From a virus, in the IMG/VR virus record IMGVR_UViG_3300049043_000191, positions 1-38,682 of that record: a DNA stretch of 38,682 bases; one strand, written 5' to 3'. Shown piece after piece: positions 1-26,912 of the stretch (the first letter of the stretch is position 1; the number at the start of each line of letters is the position of its first letter). Position numbers and translations under genes: made by a program. The notes beneath the pieces are model-generated. The model had not been told where the DNA came from, searched no databases, and was given only the letters and a program-made list of their open reading frames with translations.

Positions 1-85
1 GCTGCAGCTGAGGATGACTGTGCGTACTGCCTGCAGCATCTGACTGCCAACGTCGTGCTGCGCTGGGGCGAGAGCAACAGGTCGT

Positions 86-103
86 CCAGGTCACCTGACC
101 TGG
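86..103. repeat. CCAGGTCA inverted pair
   Basis: CCAGGTCA is followed two bases later by its exact complement TGACCTGG. The same word recurs singly near 471, 1160, 1430, 1770, 2150, 2182 and 2325 and in tandem at 1567-1622, so this is one instance of a dispersed element and not an isolated operator. Confidence 0.6.
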
Positions 104-153
104 CAGAAGCGCTCCCTACCAAACTGGTGGGTTTGTCGATGCTGGCGATGGGG

Positions 154-180
154 GCTGCTGCTGCTGCTGCTGCTGCTGCT
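154..180 (+). repeat. (GCT)9 microsatellite
   Basis: Nine uninterrupted GCT triplets. On translation it gives an Ala, Leu or Gln run depending on frame and strand, which explains the apparent low-complexity ORFs here. Confidence 0.9.
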
Positions 181-604
181 GGGCCTCCTGCTCATGCGCA
201 GCCGCATCAGCAGCGGCGGCCACCCTGTCTGGGTGGCTGCGCCAAGCAACAGTCGCCTCCAGGGCAGCCCTACTGCTGCTGCTGCCGTTGCTGCTGCTCC
301 CTGACCTGTCACCACTGCCCCAGTACCCGCTGCTCTGTCAGCAGGAAGCGCCAGCAACAAAACCTCGACCTGCATCCCGAGCGCTAGGCCGCCCCCGCCG
401 GTGAACTTGCTGCTGCTGCTGCTCTTCAGGGCTGTGCTCAACCCCCTGCTGTGGGGCCCTTCTCTTCTGCCAGGTCATCATTCGCTTGGCTTCCATGCTG
501 TGGCCTGCTCGGCCTCCTGCAGTTCTGGCGGCAGCTCAGGGCTGCAGAGCAGCCCTGGCAGGTGCCACTCGCCCAGCTTACTACGGACGCCTGCAGGCAG
601 CGGT

Positions 605-653
<49 letters not shown>

Positions 654-1103
654 CACCAAGTGGCGGCAGCAGCAGCACAAAATTAACAACCCAGGCACCA
701 CATACAATTCCCGCTTGCTGTGGTGTCTGCTAATACCCATTCATGCATTGACAGACCAAAACATGAGTCAAAACGAGAACTGACCGGTCAAACACCCGAC
801 CAGCCACACAGCAGTACCGTGCTCCAGGACCAAACCTAATCGACGGATACAGGTCAGTGTCATCCAGTACAACTTGCAGGACAGCAGCTGCCATATGTCC
901 AGGATAAAAGCTGACCAGCGGCCACATGCACCAGCTGATGACGCATGGTTGACTCACCCTGAGAAACCAGCGCTCCCTGACGGGCGGCGACTGCCTCAGT
1001 GCCAACCCTGTCAGCGTGTAGCTCTCAGCCAGAGTGGGGTCATTGGCTTTCTTGGGGGCCAGGGACTTGCGGACTGCGTGAACCGTGCAGCTCCCGTACT
1101 CGG

Positions 1104-1258
1104 CTACCTTGCTGCCCCTCTGCACCAGCAGCAGCAGCTGGCCCCAGGTCCCGCTGCCAGGTCATGGCTGCCGCCGCTGATGTCTGCGGCCCCCGGCAGC
1201 AGCAAGACCAACTGCAGGGCCACCGCGTGGTTGGTTGACGGCGCCAGGGCGGCCATCT
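1104..1258 (-). other. Exon-like stretch 1 (NHA-LQLVLL-AADIS motif)
   Basis: Read on the minus strand from 1258, after a possible acceptor (cttccag), an open frame gives NHAVALQLVLL then PGAADIS. A second stretch at 2650-2781 gives NHAIQLQLVLLPPEAADIS after a similar acceptor (caccag). The shared residues and the shared position relative to the AG suggest two homologous exons of one algal gene, or a duplicated gene fragment. I do not recognise the domain. Exon ends and the donor site are not resolved; the open frame continues to about 1104. Confidence 0.35.
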
Positions 1259-1566
1259 CTGGAAGATGAGCGTTCACAAATGACACTGGGACCGTGACAG
1301 CACTGCCCATGTTCTGGATCTACAAGGACAGCCAACCAAATGCAGCACTCATGTCAGTGACATCACATGGGTGATGCTCCTGGCAAAACAACACAACGTC
1401 GGCAAGCACCCAAGGCTGGACTGGTGCATCCTGACCTGGCACCGCTGATGTGTTTCCAAAAAATGGCGGCTGCCGAGATGAGCTGTGATGCTGCTGCTGC
1501 TGCACTGTCATCACTGTGATGCAGACGCTGCAAAGCAAAGAGCCCTGCACCAGTCCTCCAGCAGCA

Positions 1567-1622
1567 GTGCCAGGTCAGCAGTGCCAGGTCAGCAGTGCCA
1601 GGTCAGCAGTGCCAGGTCAGCT
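1567..1622 (+). repeat. 14-bp tandem repeat, four copies
   Basis: Unit gtgccaggtcagca is repeated four times, with the last two bases of the fourth copy changed. The unit contains the dispersed CCAGGTCA word, so the word has been locally amplified. Confidence 0.92.
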
Positions 1623-1666
1623 GCAGGTACTGCACTTACCAGGAGCCCGTGTATGGGCAGTCGTCT

Positions 1667-1697
1667 GCAGCAGCAGCAGCAGCAGCGGCGGCGGCGG
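1667..1697 (+). repeat. CAG/CGG trinucleotide tract
   Basis: A run of CAG triplets passing into CGG triplets, as at 605-653. Confidence 0.8.
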
Positions 1698-1969
1698 AGT
1701 GGCTGCTGCTACTGGCGCCGCGGTCTGCCTGGCAGGCCTCCTGGTCGCACGAGCTACGACCTTATCTGCTGCTGACCTGGCCCTAGTGTGCGGCCTGCTC
1801 GGCTGCGGTTGCTGCTGCTGCAACACCACCTCCTCGCCATCATCAAAAACATCTAAAACATCACCATCATCATCCTGCTGCTGCTCTGTCAGGCGCCAAT
1901 CCATATCGACCGCCTCTACGACCTGCACTCCGTCACTGTCAGTAACGTCATCTGCGATCGCTTCTTTGA

Positions 1970-1991
1970 TCTGCTGCTGCTGCTGCTGCTC
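1970..1991 (+). repeat. CTG microsatellite
   Basis: About seven consecutive CTG triplets, the opposite orientation to the CAG tracts. It sits in the same low-complexity region. Confidence 0.8.
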
Positions 1992-2490
1992 TGCAGCAAT
2001 TCCTTGTGCCGGCTTTGCTCTTCTTCTTCTGCTGCTGCTTCGACTATAGGCTTTCTCCAATTCCGGAGGCAGACGGGGGCTGCACAGCAGCTGCACCTGC
2101 CACTCACCCAGCCGCGGACCCCTACAATCACGCCAGGTCGTACAGCCAGGTCATCATAAGACAGGTCTTTCTGCAGCATGTGCCAGCCAGGTCACTGCAC
2201 AGCAGCAAGCGCTGCCCTGAACACTCTGCCACCCATGCTGGCCAAATTGTCATGTGGCGGACCTGAGCACGGCCACAACCTGCCTGGCGATGTACATCAC
2301 AAGGTCAAGGACAGGTCACTTGAATCCAGGTCACTGATGACTTCACTGGGTGCTACCAAAAACAATCAGGATCCAGAAGCCACGGGCCACACAGCAGGTG
2401 CCAGGTGTCATGACAGGTCGCATGCGGGCCGGCGGCATGATTGCCGCTGGGGCTGAGCCACCGCAGGCAGCCAGGCAGCCAGGCTGACAG

Positions 2491-2545
2491 TGACCTGTCA
2501 CACACCTCTCAGGCCTGACAGGTGACCTGTCACGCACCTCTCAGG
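2491..2545 (+). repeat. 23-bp direct repeat, two copies
   Basis: Copies at 2491-2513 and 2523-2545 differ at one base and each begins with tgacctgtcac, a relative of the dispersed CAGGTCA word. The 9-base spacer is cctgacagg-like. Confidence 0.8.
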
Positions 2546-2649
2546 TACCAGTTCTTCTGGCAGGGCTCTGAGTAGGCCAGCGACAGACCTGACAGCCCAA
2601 ACACGCTAACAGCCGGGCTTTGTTTTTGTCTGCTGGCGGCGGTGCCGCA

Positions 2650-2781
2650 CTGCTGACCCGGGCTTCAGCCAGACGATGCTGTCAGGGGGCGTCTCGGCGC
2701 TGATGTCAGCTGCTTCAGGGGGCAGCAGCACCAGCTGCAGCTGGATTGCGTGGTTGATGCCTTCAGGCAGGTCCTTCAGCT
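2650..2781 (-). other. Exon-like stretch 2 (NHA-LQLVLL-AADIS motif)
   Basis: On the minus strand from 2781, after a possible acceptor caccag, the frame reads LKDLPEG, then NHAIQLQLVLLPPEAADIS, then DSIVWLKPG, with a possible donor (GGGTCAG) just after. It matches the stretch ending at 1258 in sequence and in position of the motif relative to the acceptor. This is the best protein-level evidence of a gene in the eukaryotic segment, but its family is unknown to me and the exon boundaries are guesses. Confidence 0.35.
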
Positions 2782-3197
2782 CTGGTGACACAAGGCAGGC
2801 AGCTGACAGGCAACACAGAAGTGGGCAGCTGAACAAGAGTAAACTCAGTGGTGCTCGCCTGAGCAGGGTTGAGAACGTGCTGAGTCAGACGAGCGCTTGC
2901 AGCCATCAGGCAGCAAGGCAGCAAGAGATAACAGAGAGGCAGCTGCAGCAGCACAGCTGCTGCTTGTGGCACAGCATTGTTTAGGTCCGTTGCAAGCAAG
3001 CCATGGGAGACAGCAGAAGCAGTGGTACAGGCGCATGGGGACCACGTCGTGTACTGCCCTGTGCTTCACAGCTGGGGTAGCTCAGCCATGGATCTTGGTG
3101 TACTGCCTTGACACACAGTCAGCATGAGGATGCTGCCGTGATGAGGTCAGGCTGTGAGCAAGATGAATCTTACCCCAAACCATTTACCACCGCCTGC

Positions 3198-3452
3198 TCT
3201 GTGCTCTCTATCGCTCTTTGCTCTTCCGCCAGGGTTCTATCCAAGTAGGACTGGAAGGAAGCTCTTTGGTTGGTCCTTTTGCGGGCGTCCTCACGGCCTT
3301 TTGGATCGCGCCTGATGACGGCGTGTCAGAATGAGCGTTGTGAGCTCCTGGCATCAAGCGACGTGAATCAGCCTTGGTACTCAACTTGCAGGTGCTGGAA
3401 TCTCGTCTATTTGCTCTGATTGTACTGGGAGCGCTTGTGAACTTACTGAGCC
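3198..3452. other. Short unidentified insert before the first clear adapter
   Basis: Composition differs from the CAG-rich DNA to the left and from the AT-rich DNA to the right. The minus strand is open for about 80 codons, rich in Ser, Thr, Arg and Pro, and the plus strand is also open in parts. I do not recognise either translation. A weak possible adapter pair lies at 3159-3197, so this may be its own insert of about 255 bp. Confidence 0.3.
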
Positions 3453-3478
3453 AGCAAGATGTAACTGAACGAGGTAGA
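3453..3478 (-). other. Sequencing-adapter remnant (junction 1)
   Basis: agcaagatgtaactgaacga matches the complement of the nanopore ligation adapter (agcaatacgtaactgaacga) at 17 of 20 bases. Directly after it the sequence switches from mixed composition to strongly AT-rich DNA, as expected at the end of one insert and start of another. Confidence 0.75.
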
Positions 3479-3698
3479 TCCAAAAACATCTTCTTTGACT
3501 TTTCTTTGATGCTCTAATCTGTTGCTCTTCCATCTCAATGTAATCTTCACCTCCTAAATGTTTCATGTAATGAGATCTCTCAATAAATGTAGCAGTTCTG
3601 TTAGGGTATCTGATTTTATTAGGGTCTGTTTCAATATAATTAACTAAGTCATCATAGGATTCTCTTTTCCTTAAACCATTATAATTTATTCCAAACAT
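3479..3698 (-). CDS. Small phage-like protein, 3' end cut at junction
   Basis: The minus-strand frame begins MFGINYNGLRKRESYDDL and continues through YIETDPNKIRYPNR and MKHLGGEDYIEMEEQQ to a basic tail. It is a compact, charged, AT-rich-codon protein of at least 70 residues, of the kind seen in marine phages of AT-rich bacteria such as pelagiphages; that resemblance is from memory and no function is known to me. The frame runs into the adapter at 3478, so its end is missing. It lies downstream of the remnant at 3744-3917 on the same strand. Confidence 0.5.
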
Positions 3699-3743
3699 TA
3701 TATATTATAATAAGAATATTTTTAATATAATATATAATGTTTT

Positions 3744-3917
3744 CTAATCTTTGATTTTATTTACAGCTTTTGCACCTAATTCTTCTAAATGTTTCATTCT
3801 GTCTTTTATCATATTTTTAGTGGTATTAGGAATAAGATTATCTATGTAAAACACCTCTAATACGATCATATTCTAATTGATAGTTATGTTTCTTCTGATT
3901 TCTTAAAGCATTATGTC
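3744..3917 (-). pseudogene. Frameshifted phage-like gene remnant (possible endonuclease VII)
   Basis: Two minus-strand frames join around 3851. The upstream part reads CRHNALRNQKKHNYQLEYDR then IRGVLHR, the downstream part DNLIPNTTKNMIKDRMKHL and ends at a TAG. The string D-x-IRGVLHR followed by NLIPN recalls the recombination endonuclease VII signature (D-H-x-T-G-x-IRGLLC-x-x-CN), but the histidine and cysteine ligands are not intact here, so the call is weak. The 5' end is cut by the adapter at 3919. The intact pieces on both sides of one indel suggest sequencing error more than decay. Confidence 0.3.
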
Positions 3918-3918
3918 G

Positions 3919-3962
3919 GCAATACTAAACTAACCAAGACCTTAAAAACATTTGGGATTGCT
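3919..3962. other. Adapter pair remnant (junction 2)
   Basis: gcaatactaaactaaccaag at 3919 resembles the adapter complement, and ttgggattgct ending at 3962 resembles the 3' end of the forward adapter. The AT-rich phage-like DNA ends and a purine-rich simple repeat begins here. Each half alone is a weak match; the paired order is the same as at 4478-4519 and 4755-4789. Confidence 0.6.
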
Positions 3963-3963
3963 T

Positions 3964-4075
3964 GGCGAGAGGGGAGGGAGAAAGAGAGAGCGAGGCACAG
4001 CGAGAAGGAGAGCGCGAGAGGGAGAGGGAGAGGGACAGAGTGAGAAAGAGAGGAGAGGGAGAGGCCAGGGGAAGA
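3964..4075 (+). repeat. Purine-rich (GA)n simple repeat
   Basis: About 110 bases almost purely of A and G, mostly gagagg and gagaaag units. It opens the insert that spans 3963-4477 and suggests eukaryotic origin. Confidence 0.8.
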
Positions 4076-4477
4076 AACTCAGTGTTTCTTGGTTGCTGTG
4101 TGGAGGTTGCTGTTGGTGGCGAGCATCAGTCTCCACTCCATCTTCCGGTCAGGTCGGCCTCAACGTGAACATGATGTCCATGACCACTGGCCCAGGTCCA
4201 TGGCCGCACTCAGAGACCTTGCCCGCGTTGCTCGCAGCGAGACGTCCTTGGTGTTCGTTGCTTCTTGTCACACGCAGTGCTCATTTGCGTAGCATTGGTG
4301 GGCATTGAAGGGCCATCCGTGCGACGCCACACGCTTGCGCCCGACGTTGACGCAAACCAGGTAGCGCCGCAGTACGTTGTGCGGGTATTTTTCGAATAAG
4401 TTGTGCGATGTGGCGTGACGCTGCGTGGTGATTCTCGCAGAAGAACAAGCACAAAACTGCCACGGCATCTGCCGGGA
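4076..4477. other. Remainder of a short insert, no recognisable gene
   Basis: A minus-strand frame from about 4477 to 4268 includes NLFEKYPHNVLRRYLVCVNV and GRKRVASHGWPFNAHQCYAN, which look protein-like, but another minus frame is equally open. I cannot assign a family or decide the frame. The insert is bounded by adapter pairs on both sides. Confidence 0.3.
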
Positions 4478-4519
4478 AGCAATACGCAACGCAACGAAGA
4501 ATATCAATTAACGATTGCT
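4478..4519. other. Adapter pair remnant (junction 3)
   Basis: agcaatacgcaacgcaacga at 4478-4497 is the adapter complement with three differences, followed at once by caattaacgattgct ending at 4519, the forward adapter end with three differences. Complement followed by forward adapter is the expected order for two reads or inserts left fused. Confidence 0.8.
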
Positions 4520-4754
4520 TGGTGATGGCGTGCAGAAGCAGTCTGTGGCATGCTGCGGAAGGCAGTGCTCTAGATCCTGAGAAAAAGTGATTTTGGAAAC
4601 GGGAAAAAACACAATTTGTTTTTAAAACTAAAAAATAAGAGCGTGGCAAAGCTATTTTATTTTACGATGGAAGGAAAAATTCTCTGAATTTGTCCTAAAT
4701 TTTCTTCTGTACAGCTTAATCTGTACTCTTCCTTTCAGCTTTATCCATTTCTGT
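4520..4754. other. 235-bp AT-rich insert, nothing recognised
   Basis: Bounded by adapter pairs. It contains A- and T-runs and no open frame worth reporting; its origin is unknown. Confidence 0.5.
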
Positions 4755-4789
4755 AGCAATATGTAATGAATGAAGAGTTACGTATTGCT
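4755..4789. other. Adapter pair remnant (junction 4)
   Basis: agcaatatgtaatgaatgaa at 4755-4774 is the adapter complement with a few changes. It is followed directly by an exact gttacgtattgct at 4777-4789. This is the clearest back-to-back pair in the window. Confidence 0.88.
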
Positions 4790-5151
4790 TTTCCGGTGCT
4801 ACAAAGTAGCGGGTTGACCGGAAGCATGATGGATTCCGGGTCCGCTTGAGCTGCAGGCGGCAGGCGACCCAGAGTCCCTCAGGAGTCAGCATTGTCGAGC
4901 TCCTGGTATTTTTAGGCACGATGCGTGATATGGCCAACGCCTTGTGCCAGGGAAGGGAGCTGTCGTTGATTACATTGGTCGCTTGGTCGACCCAGACTTG
5001 GCGGTTGACGCCGGGTGTACGGCTCCACTCCTGGAAGGTATCCTCGCACGATGGCGAGTCCCAGGCGTTGCCCTGCACATAGCAGCAGGCTTGCTTGCCC
5101 TCGTGCGTCACCATGACCCGCTCCTCGGAGCGGGGCTTGTCGATGACGGCC
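4790..5151 (-). other. Short insert with one long minus-strand open frame
   Basis: The minus strand stays open across the whole 360-bp insert, with readings such as VNRQVWVDQATNVINDSSL and HKALAISRIVPKNTRSSTM. A plus-strand frame at 4846-5082 is also open. I recognise neither. Both ends are truncated by adapters, so even a real gene would be partial. The minus frame is slightly favoured by length only. Confidence 0.3.
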
Positions 5152-5190
5152 GCACGCAACAACATGAACCGAACCAGTTTACGTATTGCT
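5152..5190. other. Adapter pair remnant (junction 5)
   Basis: cagtttacgtattgct, the forward adapter end with one extra T, finishes at 5190. It is preceded by gcacgcaacaacatgaaccg, a degraded complement. GC content jumps to about 70% exactly at 5191, and the BtpA gene that starts there lacks its N-terminus, so the adapter marks the insert end precisely. Confidence 0.88.
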
Positions 5191-5908
5191 GCCGACGCGC
5201 GCGCCTACGCCGAGGGCGGGTTCGACGGGATCGTCGTCGAGAACTTCGGCGACGCCCCGTTCCACAAGGGCACCCGCGGCGACCCCGTGCCGCCCGACGC
5301 GGTCGCCGGCCTCGCCGTCGCCGCCGCGCGCATCGTGCGCCGACACCGGCCTGCCGGTCGGCATCAACTGCCTGCGCAACGACGGCATGGCCGCGCTCGG
5401 CGTCGCCGCCGTCGACCGGCGCGCGGTGGGTGCGCGTCAACGTGCTCGCCGGCGCGCTACGTCGACCGACCAGGGCGTCGTCGAAGGCGAGGCGGCGCGG
5501 CTCGCTCGCCTACCGTCGCCGACTCGGCTGCGCAGGGCGTGGTGCTGGCCGACCACCTGGTCAAGCACGCGGCGCCGCTGGCGACCGATCGACGCGGCCG
5601 CCGGCGCGCAGCGACGCTGGCCGAGCGCAGCGGCGCCGATCGGCCTCGTGCTGTCGGGCCGGCGCACCGGCGAACCCGTGCGACCTCGCGCTGCTGGCGA
5701 CAGCGTGCGCGACGGCGGTGGGCGCGGTTTCCCGATCTGGCTCGGCTCCGGCCTGTCGCTCGCCAACGCCGCGAGCGCTGTGGCCCGCGATGCGATGGGG
5801 CGATCGTCGGCACGGCGTGCAAGCAGCGACGGCCGGGTCGACCAGCCGGTCGACGCCGGCGCGGGTGCGCGCGCTGCGCGCCGCCTGTCCGGCCGCGAGC
5901 CGCGCTGA
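5191..5908 (+). pseudogene. BtpA/SgcQ family protein, 5'-truncated and frameshifted
   Basis: Joining three forward frames gives the conserved order of the BtpA family: DARAYAEGGFDGIVVENFGD, then DAPFHKG, then TGLPVGINCLRNDGMAALGV, then VRVNVLAGA, TDQGVVEGEAARLARL, VLSGRRTGEP, FPIWLGSGLSLANA and RVRALRAACPAA. BtpA proteins have a TIM-barrel-like fold; the cyanobacterial founder affects photosystem I stability, and bacterial relatives of the SgcQ type have unclear roles. At least six single-base shifts break the frame. The N-terminal part (roughly the first 25-35 residues) is missing because the insert begins at 5191. It lies just upstream of a glycosyltransferase on the same strand. Confidence 0.8.
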
Positions 5909-5945
5909 AGGGCCCGTCGCCGGCGATGGCCGAAAGAGGCCGATC

Positions 5946-6998
5946 GTGAAGGTCCTGCTGATGCCACCGGCGCCGACCAGCGTTGCACCTGGGCGGCATG
6001 CGCGACCGGTCGCGCCGCTGGCGCGACAGGCCTGCAGGCGCCGCGGCCACCTGCTGCGAGACTGTTCGGCGGCACCGACGAAGGCGGGCTCAAGCAATCG
6101 CTCGAAGGCACCCTCGACGCGCTTCCGGCCCGATCGTCGTGCACGCGCACGACGCGGCCTGCGCGCGGCGTGCAGCTGCTCGGCCTGCGCACGCCGTGGG
6201 TCGGTGTCGCTGAGCGGCGAGGACCTGCACCACGACATGCTCGACGGAGCAGCGCGGCGCCGCTCGTGCTGCGAGGTCGTGCGGCGCGCGCACCGGGTGC
6301 TGGCGCCGTCCGCCGGCCGCCGCGCGCGACGGTCGAGGAACGGGTGCCCGACGCGGTCGGCAAGATCGACGTCGTGCCGCGCGCGGCGCGCGCGCCTCGC
6401 CACCAACGGCACCGACCTGCGCCGTTGTCGCTCGGCATCCCGACGCCAGCGCTTCCTGGTGTCTCCTGCCCGGCGGGCTGCGGCCCATCAAGGGCCAGCA
6501 CCGCGCGGTCGGCCGTGGTCGGCATCCTGCGCGCCGCCGGCGCCGACGTGGAGATGATCATCGCCGGGCCCGACCAGGACCCGGCCTACGCAGGCCGAGC
6601 TGCGCGCGTCTGTGCCAGCAGCAGCCCGGGCGTGCGGGTGCTGCCGACGCTCGCGGCGCACGATCGCATGGGCGCTGCCTACCTGCGACGCCGACGTCGT
6701 GCTCAACACCTCGTTGAGCGAAGGCGCGGCGCCGACGCTGCTCGAAGCCGGCGGTTGCTCGGTCGGCCGATCGTCGCTCGGCGACGTGCCGCGGCAACCA
6801 GCGAACTCGATCCGCCACAAGGAGACCGGGCCTGCTGCTACGCGTACGGAAGAGGACATGGCCAAGCAGATCCTCGCCCTGTGCCGCAACCGCTCGGCGG
6901 CCGGCGCGCTGGGCGTGCGCGTGCGCGAGGACTTCCAGCGGCGCTTCGGCGCCGATCGCGAACTCGGCGCGCTGCTGTCGGCCTACGCGGCCGCCTGA
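5946..6998 (+). pseudogene. GT4-type glycosyltransferase, frameshifted
   Basis: Starting at a GTG that gives (M)KVLLM, the joined frames contain VVGILRAAGADVEMIIAGPD, then PGVRVLPTL, DRMGAAY, CDADVVLNTSLSEGAAPTLL with EA following, RHKETG, and a C-terminus ending AAA before TGA at 6996. The EGAAPTLLEA string is the E-x7-E donor-binding motif of retaining GT-B enzymes of family GT4. It would transfer a sugar from a nucleotide-sugar donor; acceptor unknown. Many indels break the N-terminal half, whose reading I could not reconstruct. It follows the BtpA gene and ends at a hairpin. Length of about 350 residues fits the family. Confidence 0.75.
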
Positions 6999-7023
6999 CG
7001 CAGACGCCGAGGAGTTTGCGTCA
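6996..7023 (+). terminator. Inverted repeat after the glycosyltransferase gene
   Basis: tgacgca and tgcgtca flank a GC-rich loop, starting at the gene's own stop codon. There is no T-tract, so it may be a weak or factor-dependent terminator or a REP-like hairpin. A related string (gacgcagactccgaggagtc) recurs near 7162. Confidence 0.35.
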
Positions 7024-7218
7024 CGGAACGCGCGCCGGGCCGGCGCATGGATTCGCGTCCGGGGCGAAGCGGACGACCGCAGGCGAATCGGTGGATTCGC
7101 CGAGGATCGGCCGCGAGTCCCCGGGCGCGAAGACGCGCGTCGGGCGGCGTGGCCTTTCGTGACGCAGACTCCGAGGAGTCGCCGCGCACGCTCCGTCAGG
7201 TCGCGCGGCCGGCGATCG

Positions 7219-8755
7219 CTCAGAGAGCGAGAAGCAATCGCCGTCCCGGCCGTCCCGAGCCGTTTCGACGTAGTTTCAGCGCGAGTTGCGGTCGCCCGCG
7301 GCCTCGCCGCGGGCGGCGAGCAGGGCCGCGAGGCCCTGCCGGCCGCTCATGGCGAGCGGCGGCGACAGCTTGATCCATTGCATCACGTTGTACCGCGAGC
7401 GCCATCCAGAGGCTGATGCACAGCGCCTTGTCGAGGCCGCGCACCGGCAGCTGCCTCAGCCCTCGATGCTGCCGAAGGTCCGCGTTGACGCACTCGGCGA
7501 CCGATCCTCGTTCTCGATAGATCTTCGCCGCCCGCTCCGTGCCCATGCGCCTGCGCCATGCCGCGACGTGCGGGCCGTCGCCATCCTTCGGCTTCGCCGG
7601 ATCGATGCTCTCGTCGGCGCGGCAACTGGGGCGGCGCGAAGACCGTCACGCCTTCGGCGCCGGCGCGCTCGATCTGGTCGAGTTGGACGTAGCCGCCGGT
7701 CGACGAGCATCTGCTCGGGCTTGCGGCCGGTGCGATGCTGGATGTCCTCCAGCATCGGCGTCAGCTGCCCAAGGTCGCTGCCGCTGTTGGTCACCTGCAC
7801 GCCGACGATCACCCGCGTCTTCGGTGTCCGTCGCGACCTGCACGTTGTAGCCAGGCCGAAAGCCGCCGTCGGGCATACGCATCACGCGCGCCTCGGGATC
7901 GGTCGTCGAGGCCCGCAGCGTCTCCGTCTCGTCGTCGTCGTCGTCCAGGCCGCGCATCGACTGAACTTCCTTCAGCTCCTCGAGCGCTTCCTGCACCAGT
8001 TGCTGGCGTTCGCGCACGGCACGCTCCTGCGCCGCCCGCTGCCGGTCGCTACGAGTCGAATCGTCGTGGTCGAGTTCGGCTCGTACCGCCTTCACCTGCT
8101 GGCGCGCTTCCTTCAGGCAGCGCTGCAGGCCGGTCTTGCGGCGGAACGACGCAGCGCCGGCGTTCGCGCGCACCCGCATGCCGTCCTGCGCCACCACGCT
8201 TCAGCTGCACGAGGCCTTGCGCATCGAGCACGCCGAGCAGCTGCGTGAGCAGCTCGTCCAGGCGCTTGCCGTGGCTGGACGCGGAAGTCCGCTCAGCGTG
8301 TGCTGGTTCGACCGCGACGCCACCGCAGATCCACCGAGTACGCGTCGTCGCGCTCGCACAGCCGTGCGAGCTGGCGGCCGCTGCCCACGCCTTCGCTGCG
8401 TCGCGAAGAGCCACAGCGCGACCAGCATCGCAGGGTCGGTCGCCGGGCGGCCAGGATCGCTGCCGCGCGCCACGATCGACTCGTAGAAGGACGACAGGTC
8501 GAGCTGCTCCACCGCCGCGACGATCGCGCGCGCCCGATGGTCGATCGGCAGCACCTGATCGAGCACCTCGGCGCGCAGCAGCGACTGCCGGCGATCTGGG
8601 CGGTTCACGCGCGGCGCGCCGCCGCCGCGCTTCTGCTTCCTGCCCTTCGCTTCACCGCCGAGATCGCCGAACAGACCCTGGTTGCCCACGCATCAGGGTT
8701 TTCCGACGACGGCGTCAAGGGACGACGCCGCGGCGATTCTTTCTCACTCTCTCAG
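7219..8755 (-). mobile_element. Complete IS1182-family insertion sequence
   Basis: The left end 7219-7243 (ctcagagagcgagaagcaat then cgccg) and the complement of the right end 8731-8755 (ctgagagagtgagaaagaat then cgccg) match at 21 of 25 positions, giving terminal inverted repeats around a single transposase gene. The element is 1537 bp, usual for IS1182. No clear target-site duplication is seen; errors in the sequence could hide a short one. It lies in high-GC bacterial DNA downstream of the glycosyltransferase. Confidence 0.8.
7276..8689 (-). pseudogene. IS1182-family DDE transposase, frameshifted
   Basis: Joined minus-strand frames give the N-terminal LPIDHRARAIVAAVEQLDLS and SFYESIVARGSDPGRPATDP blocks with MLVALWLFA typical of the family. 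After these come a Lys/Gln/Glu-rich coiled-coil region, RMPDGGFRPGYNVQVATDTE, then VTNSGSDLGQLTPMLEDIQ, VAECVNADLR and a C-terminus at MQWIKLSPP to a TGA complementing 7276-7278. These match the DUF772 domain and the DDE catalytic region, where the glutamate before CVNADLR and the aspartates of the central block are expected. About 470 codons, the usual length. The repeated shifts look like read errors because every conserved block is present in order. It lies inside matching terminal inverted repeats. Confidence 0.85.
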
Positions 8756-8861
8756 GCTTCCGGCGGAGGATATGTACGAAGCCTTTGTGCTAGCGTTCTG
8801 CGAGTTTCTGAGGTGGAGGGCTCAGTGCTAGCTAAGCCAGTTTTCCCAGTTTACTAGCTAT
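8756..8861. other. Flank of the IS and possible adapter (junction 6)
   Basis: After the IS the GC content falls. cagtttactagct ending at 8861 resembles the forward adapter end with a gap, and agcc-cag strings precede it, so an insert boundary near 8836-8861 is likely but not certain. No gene is visible. Confidence 0.4.
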
Positions 8862-9443
8862 GAATGGAAAAGTTAAACATTTCTCAGATTTGGGAAACGT
8901 GTACAAATTGCTTTCTGAGACGCATTGGCGTGATTTAGCTCTAGTATCGTTTCCATTAGTTTGGTTAGCTAAAACATTCTGTGAAACCATTGCACAGAAA
9001 GGGAAGAAGTTTCACAATCAACAATGGTGGCTTTGATGGAATTCTCTGCAGCCAAAAGTCGGTTTGGCTAGTTCCATGGTTGAACCAAGCCAAAATCAAA
9101 GACCTGTCCAGAAGGGCCTGTATTGAAATTTTGAGTTTCTGGTGCTGAAGTGATCTTAAAACCAGGTCCCACCTTTTGGGAGTTTGTTGGCTAAGAAGGG
9201 ACTTTTTCGGACTAGAGTGGCTATTTACTCCGTCTTGCCGCACTTGACTAGCAATTTCGACCAGAGAAGTTTCAGCTTGAGGATGAGTCTGTTTAGCTTC
9301 TGGTTCCAACGTCAATAACTCGTCGAGCTGATAATCGGAACCCTCTAGACGTTGTTCAATATCATCAATAGATTGAGTATAATCGAGGATACGATTCGCG
9401 GATAGTTGCCACCGAAGAAGCAAAGTTTCTCTTGGGTGTTCCC
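8862..9443. other. Unidentified insert with open frames on both strands
   Basis: A plus-strand frame starts at an ATG at 8862 (VKHFSDLGNVYKLLSETHW, then SFPLVWLAKTFCETI) and closes near 9037. A minus-strand frame of about 150 codons runs 9423-8965 (WQLSANRILDYTQSIDDIEQ, then LDELLTLEPEAKQTHPQAE). Both look protein-like and they overlap, so at least one is false or indel-broken. I recognise neither. The right end is cut by the adapter at 9444. Confidence 0.3.
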
Positions 9444-9471
9444 AGCAAGACTAAACTGAATGATTTGACAT
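9444..9471 (-). other. Adapter remnant at the left edge of the phage (junction 7)
   Basis: agcaagactaaactgaatga then tttgacat aligns along 28 bases with the adapter complement agcaatacgtaactgaacga followed by agtacatt, with scattered substitutions. It marks where the phage-bearing DNA starts. Confidence 0.75.
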
Positions 9472-9795
9472 AAAACCTTTAGTTATTATCAACAACCCGT
9501 TCTTACAAAAGGGGCTTTGTAGCTTACCGCCGCACACTATCACGCTACACCATGCACGATACAGCTACTGGCTAAGGGCAATGGGTACGGTAACCAGAAC
9601 CAGCGCACGGCAGCGCTTGCGTGGTCATCGATTTGGGTTTGAGGATGCTGAGGTGCGTGCCCCTCTTCCCTTTCCCCCCAAAAAAATATCACTTTTCTGC
9701 TAGAGTTAAGCCTTGTCATTTCCTTCTGGCTTTAGCCACTCTTGCGGGTGGCTATTTTTTTATCTATACTGGTGAGCATTGGTAGAGGGATATAT
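9472..9795 (+). other. Leader of the phage region, no supported gene
   Basis: A short frame from an ATG at 9580 gives about 42 codons with RLRGHRFGFEDAEV, but another frame reads NGYGNQNQRTAALAWSS, and neither is recognised. The stretch ends in a hairpin terminator and a short AT-rich spacer before the first phage gene. A partial upstream gene, broken by indels, could lie here. Confidence 0.4.
9734..9761 (+). terminator. Rho-independent terminator
   Basis: agccactc and gggtggct form an 8-bp stem with one G-T pair and a 4-base loop, followed by a run of T residues. It should close transcription entering from the left before the phage gene cluster. It would also act on an upstream gene that is not recognisable here. 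Confidence 0.75.
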
Positions 9796-16451: not shown

Positions 16452-16454
16452 GTT

Positions 16455-16935
16455 ATGGTGAAGCAATCCATTCAATCTCGGTTTGAATCAAAGGTTGCAT
16501 TTGCGCCTTGAGCGAGTGTCATTTGTGGACTGCATCAAAAAATGCTTTTGGTTATGGAAAGTTTGGACAAGGCTCGAAATGGATGCTTGCTCACAGATAT
16601 TCTTGGCAAGCAACAAATGGCGATATACCAGAAGGCAAATATGTTTTGCATACTTGCGATAACCCATCTTGCGTAAATCCCAAGCACTTATATCTTGGTA
16701 CATATAAAGAAAATGCTCGTGATAGAGAAGACAGAAAAAGAGGCAATCACTCTAAAGGTGTAAATCACGGGCGTAGCGTTTTATTAGAATCTCAGATTTA
16801 TGAGATAAGAGATGCTTTTGATACTGGAAATTACTCTTTCAAACAATTAGGAAGAATTTACGGTATTGATGGTAAGTCTGTCGCTAACATCAGTTGACAG
16901 GAAAAATTGGAAACATCTTCACTAAGGAGTACTAA
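16455..16935 (+). CDS. HNH homing-type endonuclease, frameshifted
   Basis: ATG 16455 is followed by MVKQSIQSRFESKV. After a shift near 16512 the protein reads SECHLWTASKNAFGYGKFG, then WMLAHRYSWQATNGDIPEGK, HTCDNPSCVNPKHLYLG, then KENARDREDRKRG. H-T-C-D-N-P-x-C-V-N-P-x-H-L is the HNH_3 nuclease motif. The C-terminal part (LLESQIYEIRDAFDTGNYSF, then LGRIYGIDGKSVANIS) is a NUMOD/HTH-like DNA-binding region. A free-standing homing endonuclease inserted in the head module. It has no good ribosome binding site. A second indel lies near 16895; the stop is TAA 16933. Confidence 0.8.
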
Positions 16936-16936
16936 A

Positions 16937-17121
16937 GTGGACCTTTTAAGCCCCGTGGCGCTAACAACCCACGCAGACCCACAGACAACAACCAACAAAA
17001 CGGTGTTGTGACCAACACTCCACGCTTCTCCCAACTGGGTGGCTTGGACTCTCCAACTGCAACTGGTTCTAAGAACAAGATGCAAGTTCAAAAGCCCGGT
17101 GATGGCAAAAAAGTAATCTGA
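16937..17121 (+). CDS. Small basic/Asn-rich protein before scaffold
   Basis: AAGGAG precedes the start by a few bases. After an indel at the very start the frame reads GPFKPRGANNPRRPTDNNQQ, NGVVTNTPRFSQLGGLDSP, then KNKMQVQKPGDGKKVI to TGA 17119. About 60 residues, disordered. The start codon is uncertain (GTG 16937 is out of frame with the body). Unknown function, in the head operon. Confidence 0.5.
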
Positions 17122-23358: not shown

Positions 23359-25776
23359 ATGCCACGCCTATCTAAAGTTGGAGCAGCCGCACTAGCCGCC
23401 TTTGGGTGGACTTCTGGCACAACTGTATCTGCTAGTTACCTTGTGGTTTCTGGCGGGGGTGGTGGTGCTACTGGTGTTGGTGGTTCTGCAAATGGAGGTG
23501 GTGGCGGAGCGGGTGGTTATCAAACAGGCACAACATCACTCAACCCTACTCTTTCTTACACGGTAACTGTTGGTGCTGGTGGTGCGACAAATTCAAACGG
23601 AACAACATCTCAATTAGGTGCTTTGACCGCTTCAGTAGGTGGCGGTGCTGGTGGATACAACACAGGAAATGGTCAAACAGGCGGTTCTGGTGGCGGTGCT
23701 AGTAGTTATGTTAGTTCTACTGCTGGTTCAGGAACTGCTGGACAAGGTAATGCTGGTGGTACTCAAGTTCTTAATACTGGAACTGGTGGCGGTGGTGGTG
23801 CTAGTGCTGTTGGCGGTAATGCAAGCGGAGTAAATGGCGGTAATGGTGGCGCTGGTACTGCCTCGTCCATTTCTGGTTCATCGGTCACTTATGCTGGTGG
23901 TGGCGGTGGTTCTACAAATACTGGTGGCTCTGCTGGAACTGGAGGTTCTGGTGGAGGGGGTGCTGGTGGTGTAAGTGCGGCTGGAACATCTGGAACTGCT
24001 AATACTGGAGGCGGTGGAGGAGGCGGTGCTTCTTCTGCATCAGGTGGTGCTGGCGGCTCAGGCGTAGTCATCATTTCATACACATCAGCCACGCAATTAT
24101 TTGGCGGTGGAACTGTTACCCAGTCAGGTGGCAAGTTCATCCACACATTCACATCTTCTGGCGCACTTAGCCCGTTGTCATCTGTTTCAGCGAGTTACTT
24201 AGTAGTTGCTGGTGGTGGTTCTGGTGGTGCGGGTAATGGCGGTGGAGGTGGAGGTGGAGCTGGAGGTTTGCTTTCTGGTTCTGGTCTGACTCTTGATGCC
24301 AACTCAATTTATACAGTTACCGTTGGCGGTGGTGGTTCTGGTGCTGGTTCTGCTCCATATAGAAACACTGGCTCTAATTCTGTGTTTAGTGGTTATGCCA
24401 CATCCGCAATAGGTGGCGGTGGCGGTGGTTACGATGCAACATACACCCCGCAATCTGGTGGTTCTGGCGGTGGTGGAAATTACAGTTCTACTACTGGAGG
24501 TTCTGGCACAAGCGGACAAGGCTACGCTGGTGGAAATAACACAGGAACATCTCCTGCATACGGAGGAGGTGGTGGTGGTGGCTCTGGTGCTGTGGGTGCT
24601 GTTGGCACATCCTCTGTTGGTGGTAACGGTGGTGCTGGTACTGCATCTTCTATAAGTGGCTCTAGCGTCACTTACGCAGGAGGCGGTGGTGGCGGTACTA
24701 ACGGAGCGCAAACAACTGGAACTGGTGCGGCTGGCGGAGGCAATGGTGGTGCTAACTCTGGAATTGGCGGAAATGCTACTGCTAACACAGGCTCTGGTGG
24801 TGGCGGTGGAGGTGGTGGTTCTGTATCAGGCGGTAACGGTGGCTCTGGCGTTGTAATCATCTCCTACGCTGGCTCACAAAAGTTTACTGGCGGCACAGTC
24901 ACATCTTCTGGTGGCAACACCATTCACACATTTACTTCTAGCGGGTCTTTGACTCCAGCATATAGCGTTGACTTTTTAGTTGTCGCTGGCGGAGGCGGAG
25001 GCGGTGGAGGCTATCCCGGAATTACAACTGGTGGCGGTGGAGGGGCTGGTGGCTACCGAACTTCTGCTGGCACATCAGGAGGCGGCGCATCTGCTGAGTC
25101 TGCTTTGTTACTAACCGTTGGAACTATTTACACCGTCACCATTGGCGCGGGTGGTTCTGGTGGCGCTGGAAATGCAGGTGGCTCTAATGGAAGTGCTGGT
25201 GCTAACTCAGTCTTTGGCTCAATCACATCAACAGGTGGTGGTTACGGTGCATGGAATCAACAAGTAGGTGGCAACGGTGGTTCTGGTGGTGGTGCTTCTG
25301 GTCCAACCAACCCTAGCCCACCATCGTATGCTGGTGGCTCTGGCACAGCCAATCAAGGTTATGGTGGTGGTTCAGCAGGTAGATTCCAAGGCGGAAGCGG
25401 TGGTGGCGCGGGTGCGGCAGGTGTTACCTCTGGCGCTGGTGGAGTCGGTGTTGCTTCCTCTATAACAGGAACATCAATTTACTATGGCGGCGGCGGCGGT
25501 ATGTCAGGTTTCTTGGGTGGTAATGGTGGTGGAGGTCAAGGTTCTGACTATCCATCAGCTACCGTTCCTGCTGGCGCTGGTACAGCCAACACGGGTGGTG
25601 GTGGTGGCGGCGGAGGTAATCCTTCAACTTCGGCTGCGGCTGGTGGCTCTGGTGTTGTTATTCTTTCTATACCAACATCACGCTACTCAGGATTGACCAC
25701 AGGCTCACCAACAGTCACAACCAACGGTTCAAACACAATTTTGAAATTTACATCATCTGGAACATACACGGCATAA
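23359..25776 (+). CDS. Glycine-rich tail adhesin with three repeated domains
   Basis: 805 residues, intact; about 40% glycine. Three modules start with SASYLVV (residue 24), SASYLVV (275) and VDFLVV (535) and end with GVVIISY, GVVIISY and GVVILSI (about 241, 502, 770). Between modules lie short beta linkers with GGTVT-SGG and IHTFTSSG. Each module alternates Gly runs with short Ser/Thr/Asn/Tyr loops and a YTVTVG(A/G)GG strand, like the glycine-rich domains (PF21722 type) and the polyglycine-II sandwich of S16 phage gp38 adhesin. It probably binds the host receptor; variable loops are the likely contacts. AAGGAC precedes ATG. Domain copies could recombine or expand. Confidence 0.7.
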   Translation: MPRLSKVGAAALAAFGWTSGTTVSASYLVVSGGGGGATGVGGSANGGGGGAGGYQTGTTSLNPTLSYTVTVGAGGATNSNGTTSQLGALTASVGGGAGGYNTGNGQTGGSGGGASSYVSSTAGSGTAGQGNAGGTQVLNTGTGGGGGASAVGGNASGVNGGNGGAGTASSISGSSVTYAGGGGGSTNTGGSAGTGGSGGGGAGGVSAAGTSGTANTGGGGGGGASSASGGAGGSGVVIISYTSATQLFGGGTVTQSGGKFIHTFTSSGALSPLSSVSASYLVVAGGGSGGAGNGGGGGGGAGGLLSGSGLTLDANSIYTVTVGGGGSGAGSAPYRNTGSNSVFSGYATSAIGGGGGGYDATYTPQSGGSGGGGNYSSTTGGSGTSGQGYAGGNNTGTSPAYGGGGGGGSGAVGAVGTSSVGGNGGAGTASSISGSSVTYAGGGGGGTNGAQTTGTGAAGGGNGGANSGIGGNATANTGSGGGGGGGGSVSGGNGGSGVVIISYAGSQKFTGGTVTSSGGNTIHTFTSSGSLTPAYSVDFLVVAGGGGGGGGYPGITTGGGGGAGGYRTSAGTSGGGASAESALLLTVGTIYTVTIGAGGSGGAGNAGGSNGSAGANSVFGSITSTGGGYGAWNQQVGGNGGSGGGASGPTNPSPPSYAGGSGTANQGYGGGSAGRFQGGSGGGAGAAGVTSGAGGVGVASSITGTSIYYGGGGGMSGFLGGNGGGGQGSDYPSATVPAGAGTANTGGGGGGGGNPSTSAAAGGSGVVILSIPTSRYSGLTTGSPTVTTNGSNTILKFTSSGTYTA

Positions 25777-26466: not shown

Positions 26467-26912
26467 TTAAGACCATGATTTATAACCAGAGTGTTCAATA
26501 TGAAGTTGATTGTGATGTGGTTGGCAAAGCCATGTCACAACAAGTTTCATGTCTTGGGCGTATGAAGAATGGTGCGCTTGACCAACTTCTCCGCATACAA
26601 AGCACGGCTCTCGGTTTATTTTTCCAGTCCTCAAAGCGTAACGAACTGCGTTTCGAGCAGATTCTTTTGTTGGCTCACGCTTGTATCGTTTGTTGGCTAA
26701 CTTGCCTTTCTCGGTTAATTTGTAGCGTTTTTTGTTTTCTGGGTATTGCTTCTCTTTTTCCGATTGGACTTTCCCACTTCGGTCAGTCGGTAGTTTTTTA
26801 CCCATTTGTAACAACAAGATTTACACTTATTTAAATGACCATCTTTCATTCCTTTATGAAAATGAAATTCAAACAACGGCTTTGTTTGATTGCACCATTT
26901 ACAGACCTTCAT
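26467..26912 (-). CDS. HNH endonuclease on the opposite strand, frameshifted
   Basis: Minus strand from ATG 26912: MKVCKWCNQTKPLFEFHFHK, HLNKCKSCCYKWVKNYR (a CxxC/CxxC zinc ribbon), a Lys-rich linker, then INREPCFVCGEVGQAHHSSY and LVVTWLCQPHHNQLHIEHSG. CxxC ... HH ... H-x-x-N-x-x-H is an HNH nuclease core with zinc ligands. The frame shifts near 26790. It lies antisense to the fibre genes, between two plus-strand genes, as typical of a free-standing homing endonuclease. About 148 residues. Confidence 0.78.

Follow-up and report, generated by a model that had tools for sequence, protein, structure and literature searches.

Nanopore reads in which two strands passed consecutively through a pore and were left unsplit, with adapter in mid-read, have been described (PMC5600009, PMC6156371). 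In such in-silico chimeras (White et al, 2017, PMC5600009; PMC6156371), adapter lies between unrelated inserts inside the read, and this signature is what the middle-adapter test of Porechop uses. The ligation adapter is printed as AATGTACTTCGTTCAGTTACGTATTGCT for its start and GCAATACGTAACTGAACGAAGT for its end (PMC7490894). The window analysed here, the complete 38,682-nucleotide virus record IMGVR_UViG_3300049043_000191, likewise carries adapter between unrelated inserts. It differs from the published in-silico chimeras in that several joins follow one another within 2 kb and are still present in an assembled virus contig that has been made public. We consider this record to be a nanopore-assembled contig consisting of a real 29-kb phage body and a left part of 9.5 kb that is a low-coverage overhang of a chimeric, probably single, read (probability about 0.96). 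The artefact is a known technical one of low biological interest and was correctly recognised at first reading, in a first-pass annotation; the adapter sequence quoted there is correct and matches the printed version.

All five sites named in that annotation contain degraded copies of the ligation adapter in one orientation, with the end-adapter first, then a short linker and then the start-adapter. The first (3,453–3,486) comprises the reverse-complement end-adapter and the linker AGATCCAAAAACAT. The second (3,919–3,962) shows a degraded end-adapter, the linker and a terminal GATTGCT, and the third (4,478–4,519) an end-adapter with the forward end GATTGCT. In the fourth (4,755–4,789) the end-adapter is directly followed by an exact AGTTACGTATTGCT, and the exact core gttacgtattgct reported at 4,777–4,789 is present, whereas the fifth (5,152–5,190) combines a degraded end-adapter with TTTACGTATTGCT. 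The forward adapter end, said to follow usually, is found at four of the five sites and is missing at 3,453.

Aligned with gaps, as the annotation had suggested, the reverse-complement adapter scored 38 at 3,453–3,479, 34 at both 4,478–4,504 and 4,755–4,786, and 28 at 3,919–3,943; the first three exceed the maximum of 31 obtained in 40 dinucleotide shuffles of the window, and the last falls below it. A two-part score, which takes an end-adapter and then a start-adapter within 30 nt, reached 59 (4,755–4,789), 52 (4,478–4,519), 46 (from 3,453), 45 (5,152–5,190) and 38 (3,919–3,962). Shuffled sequence (3.7 Mb) contained two peaks of 44 or more and none of 46 or more, and related phage DNA (765 kb) contained six of at least 46 and none of at least 48. 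Because peaks at the level of 39 or less occur about once per 9 kb of natural DNA, those inside the phage part (20,901, 30,285 and others, none above 39) were rejected as background, and by the two-part score 3,919–3,962 is likewise at background and not significant. When the linker from other contigs of dataset 3300049043 was included, this site scored 46, a value reached a single time when 1.53 Mb of natural DNA was scored, and the site at 3,453 scored 56.5. Blastn also aligned the 3,919–3,962 remnant (82%, E 1e-5) with a further contig from that dataset. An nhmmer profile built solely from other 3300049043 contigs recovered the sites at 3,453 (E 2e-5) and 4,478 (E 6e-4); this profile of exact copies is too strict for the degraded sites at 4,755 (E 0.04) and 3,919 (E 3.3). 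Four sites are thus far above shuffled sequence, and the fifth is so once the linker is counted. Their description as five clear sites stands for adapter presence, at 3,919 only with the linker, and misses a weak sixth. This probable remnant (9,444–9,484) has a reverse-complement score of 27 and a two-part score of 37, weak when taken alone, and phage homology starts at about 9,485.

The same architecture recurs across dataset 3300049043. An exact 23-base adapter core was found in 11 stretches among 2.9 million IMG/VR contigs, all 11 from this dataset, and the layout around it reads insert, AGCAATACGTAACTGAACGAAGT, a linker near acatccacaaaacatt, a partial start-adapter ending in acgtattgct, and a new insert. 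The linker is common to the window and the dataset, as seen from GTAGATCCAAAAACAT at 3,453 against GTAGATCCGAAAAACAT in a locus (L083) of contig 000188, and two other loci (L082 and L089) also lack the forward end, as at 3,453. Contigs 000116, 000152 and 000188 share the order of end-adapter, linker and start-adapter with the window, and one of them also shares an insert; the adapter copies found in them are exact or nearly so, whereas those of the window are more degraded. With a 16-mer of the end-adapter, 57 stretches were found in IMG/VR. Of these, 44 belong to 32 contigs from 3300049043, where several lie no more than 40 bases from the end of the contig and a single locus has as many as six. 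The mean GC change was 0.120 at the 16-mer sites of this dataset, 0.048 at random positions of the same contigs, and 0.026 at the same 16-mer outside the dataset. One locus (L087) shows a run of adapter joins in about 2 kb, like the window. The 120-kb contig IMGVR_UViG_3300049043_000188 (L083, L088, L090 and L091) has at least eight internal 16-mer matches and is probably itself a chimera.

The artefact is very probably systematic in 3300049043, with many virus contigs, including the 120-kb one, adapter-joined to unrelated DNA; if so, virus gene content and host links taken from such contigs are partly false. We found no literature naming this dataset, and the main value of the present result is a data-quality warning about it. 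Searching for the exact adapter is a fast way to screen contigs: the 16-base core is present in at least 32 from this one public dataset, and studies of viral diversity, genome size or host prediction that use such contigs should trim them at adapter sites. In contig 3300049043_000116, a join at 7,800–7,913 of locus L084 is too degraded for the 16-mer search, so exact-match counts underestimate the contamination.

The remnants delimit a series of inserts in the window. Insert A (1–3,452) has a GC content of 0.60 and is rich in CAG/CTG and ccaggtca repeats, and insert B (3,487–3,918) is AT-rich (GC 0.26) with an ORF on the minus strand whose protein found no relative among viral contigs. Inserts C (3,963–4,477; GC 0.58, GA-rich at its start) and D (4,520–4,754; GC 0.37) are, like A, characterised by composition. 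From the first site to the fifth, GC jumps by 0.28, 0.33, 0.20, 0.23 and 0.16. No jump within the phage part is as large as the first four, and the largest one there equals the fifth within 0.001, which bears out the earlier statement that composition or gene content changes at each site. For joins 1–4 the evidence consists of adapter plus composition, origin from different genomes being indicated there by GC only, whereas at join 5 it is indicated by two references.

Insert E (4,790–5,151) has a source in common with part of contig 3300049043_000116, the identity to L084 being 93.4% over window positions 4,872–5,161. The L084 copy starts directly after an adapter of its own (the degraded join described above), where the window runs unbroken, and L084 continues past 5,161 into other sequence, where the window has adapter. 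On the other side of this remnant, insert F (5,191–8,750) is Planctomycetota (Phycisphaerales-like) DNA, in which we identified a BtpA gene fragment (Pfam), a downstream gene region and an IS1182-like transposase. Positions 5,191–7,001 match contig JADCJE010000088.1 of a Phycisphaerales metagenome-assembled genome (MAG) at 88%; the match opens at 5,191, the first base after the adapter, and upstream of it the MAG contig continues differently. Homology thus breaks at about 5,151–5,161 and at 5,191, and sequence comparison with two independent references establishes that the breakpoints of join 5 coincide with the edges of the adapter.

Insert G (8,790–9,443; GC 0.43) is joined to F somewhere within 8,700–8,830, where GC drops abruptly from 0.73 to 0.43 (jump 0.28) and no adapter is recognisable. 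This boundary may reflect direct ligation, a remnant degraded past recognition, or a natural boundary; when the surroundings of the transposase were searched for inverted repeats, no clear end of an element was seen close to it.

The phage segment (9,485–38,682, plus strand) makes up 75% of the window, about 29 kb, and encodes a terminase region, a major head protein and tail or other structural proteins according to PHROGs. Homology to short-read contigs is collinear from about 9,485 (by megablast from 9,614) to about 38,611. The nearest GenBank relative, MW202753.1 (Bacteriophage sp., Manatee Spring), corresponds from terminase through the head genes with a DNA identity of only about 70–78%. 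Unlike this part, insert A gave no match among phage records and insert G none among plasmids and phages. In the relative L003/G001, about 4.9 kb separates the places that match the two phage ends of the window, so the phage part is incomplete, and in nature more phage DNA would adjoin it on the left.

A real biological mosaic, with horizontally acquired segments beside the phage and a chance likeness to adapter, could draw on the varied composition of the inserts and the transposase in F. It would have to account for an exact adapter confined to one dataset, for breakpoints on adapter edges against two references, and for inserts of 235–515 bp with GC contents from 0.26 to 0.61 that correspond to no known element, and we regard it as extraordinarily improbable. 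The first-pass annotation was right that unrelated inserts are joined by adapter, as the adapter match, the shared architecture in 3300049043 and the breakpoints against two references indicate, and that gene neighbourhoods across these joins are not real. It would therefore be a mistake to take insert A with its many repeats, the Planctomycete genes or the transposase for cargo of the phage. Its title went further and made the entire window a concatemer of unrelated inserts. Frame-breaking errors do occur in the phage part as well; its collinearity with short-read contigs over 9,485–38,611 and the lack of any further adapter site above controls within it make this extension very improbable, so that the claim holds for 1–9,484 and not for the contiguous phage DNA of 9,485–38,682.

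The word concatemer is apt for joined inserts and less so for its suggestion of ligation, the layout better fitting successive strands in one unsplit read. Ligation chimeras occur in nanopore libraries, and the adapter-free boundary between F and G could be one. In a true concatemer, ligase would have joined the fragments end to end during library preparation, adapters included; ligation before adapter attachment, however, would leave no adapter between inserts, and only F and G meet without it, the five sites all having it. A linker and start-adapter after each end-adapter is also the expectation for consecutive reads, and we consider a true ligation concatemer unlikely. This layout favours unsplit strands, and we infer that these, rather than ligation, gave rise to the overhang as a single read. 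A single pore would have read at least seven unrelated strands shortly after one another, with no split made between them. The basecaller would have written the end-adapter, a short call of the gap and the next start-adapter as internal sequence; adapter trimming would have missed the internal copies, and the assembler would have retained the overhang as a contig end.

The distribution of errors makes the left end look like such a low-coverage chimeric-read overhang: about three frame-breaking events are supported in the centre of the phage part (18.5–27.5 kb), and their number climbs toward both ends. Over the 1.8 kb in which F aligns with the MAG contig, the window has 60 insertions and two deletions (about 34 indels per kb). 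The insertions within 5,191–7,001 are mostly a single G or C beside CG and begin only after about 146 bases. Nanopore reads do not usually show such a surplus of insertions over deletions. This counts against the proposed explanation, as do the boundary of F and G, where no adapter is recognisable, and the weakness of the remnant at 9,444 when taken alone.

Several features of the phage part itself were also observed. A segment of about 485 bp (16,453–16,937) with an HNH endonuclease gene is missing at this position in most related phage contigs, and in one (L022) the matching sequence extends into it; the segment looks like a mobile homing-endonuclease insertion. A second HNH-type endonuclease is encoded at 26,467–26,817 on the minus strand, opposite to its neighbours. 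Positions 23,359–25,776 encode a glycine-rich repetitive protein of 805 amino acids that matches phrog_2295 (unknown function) at 1e-122.
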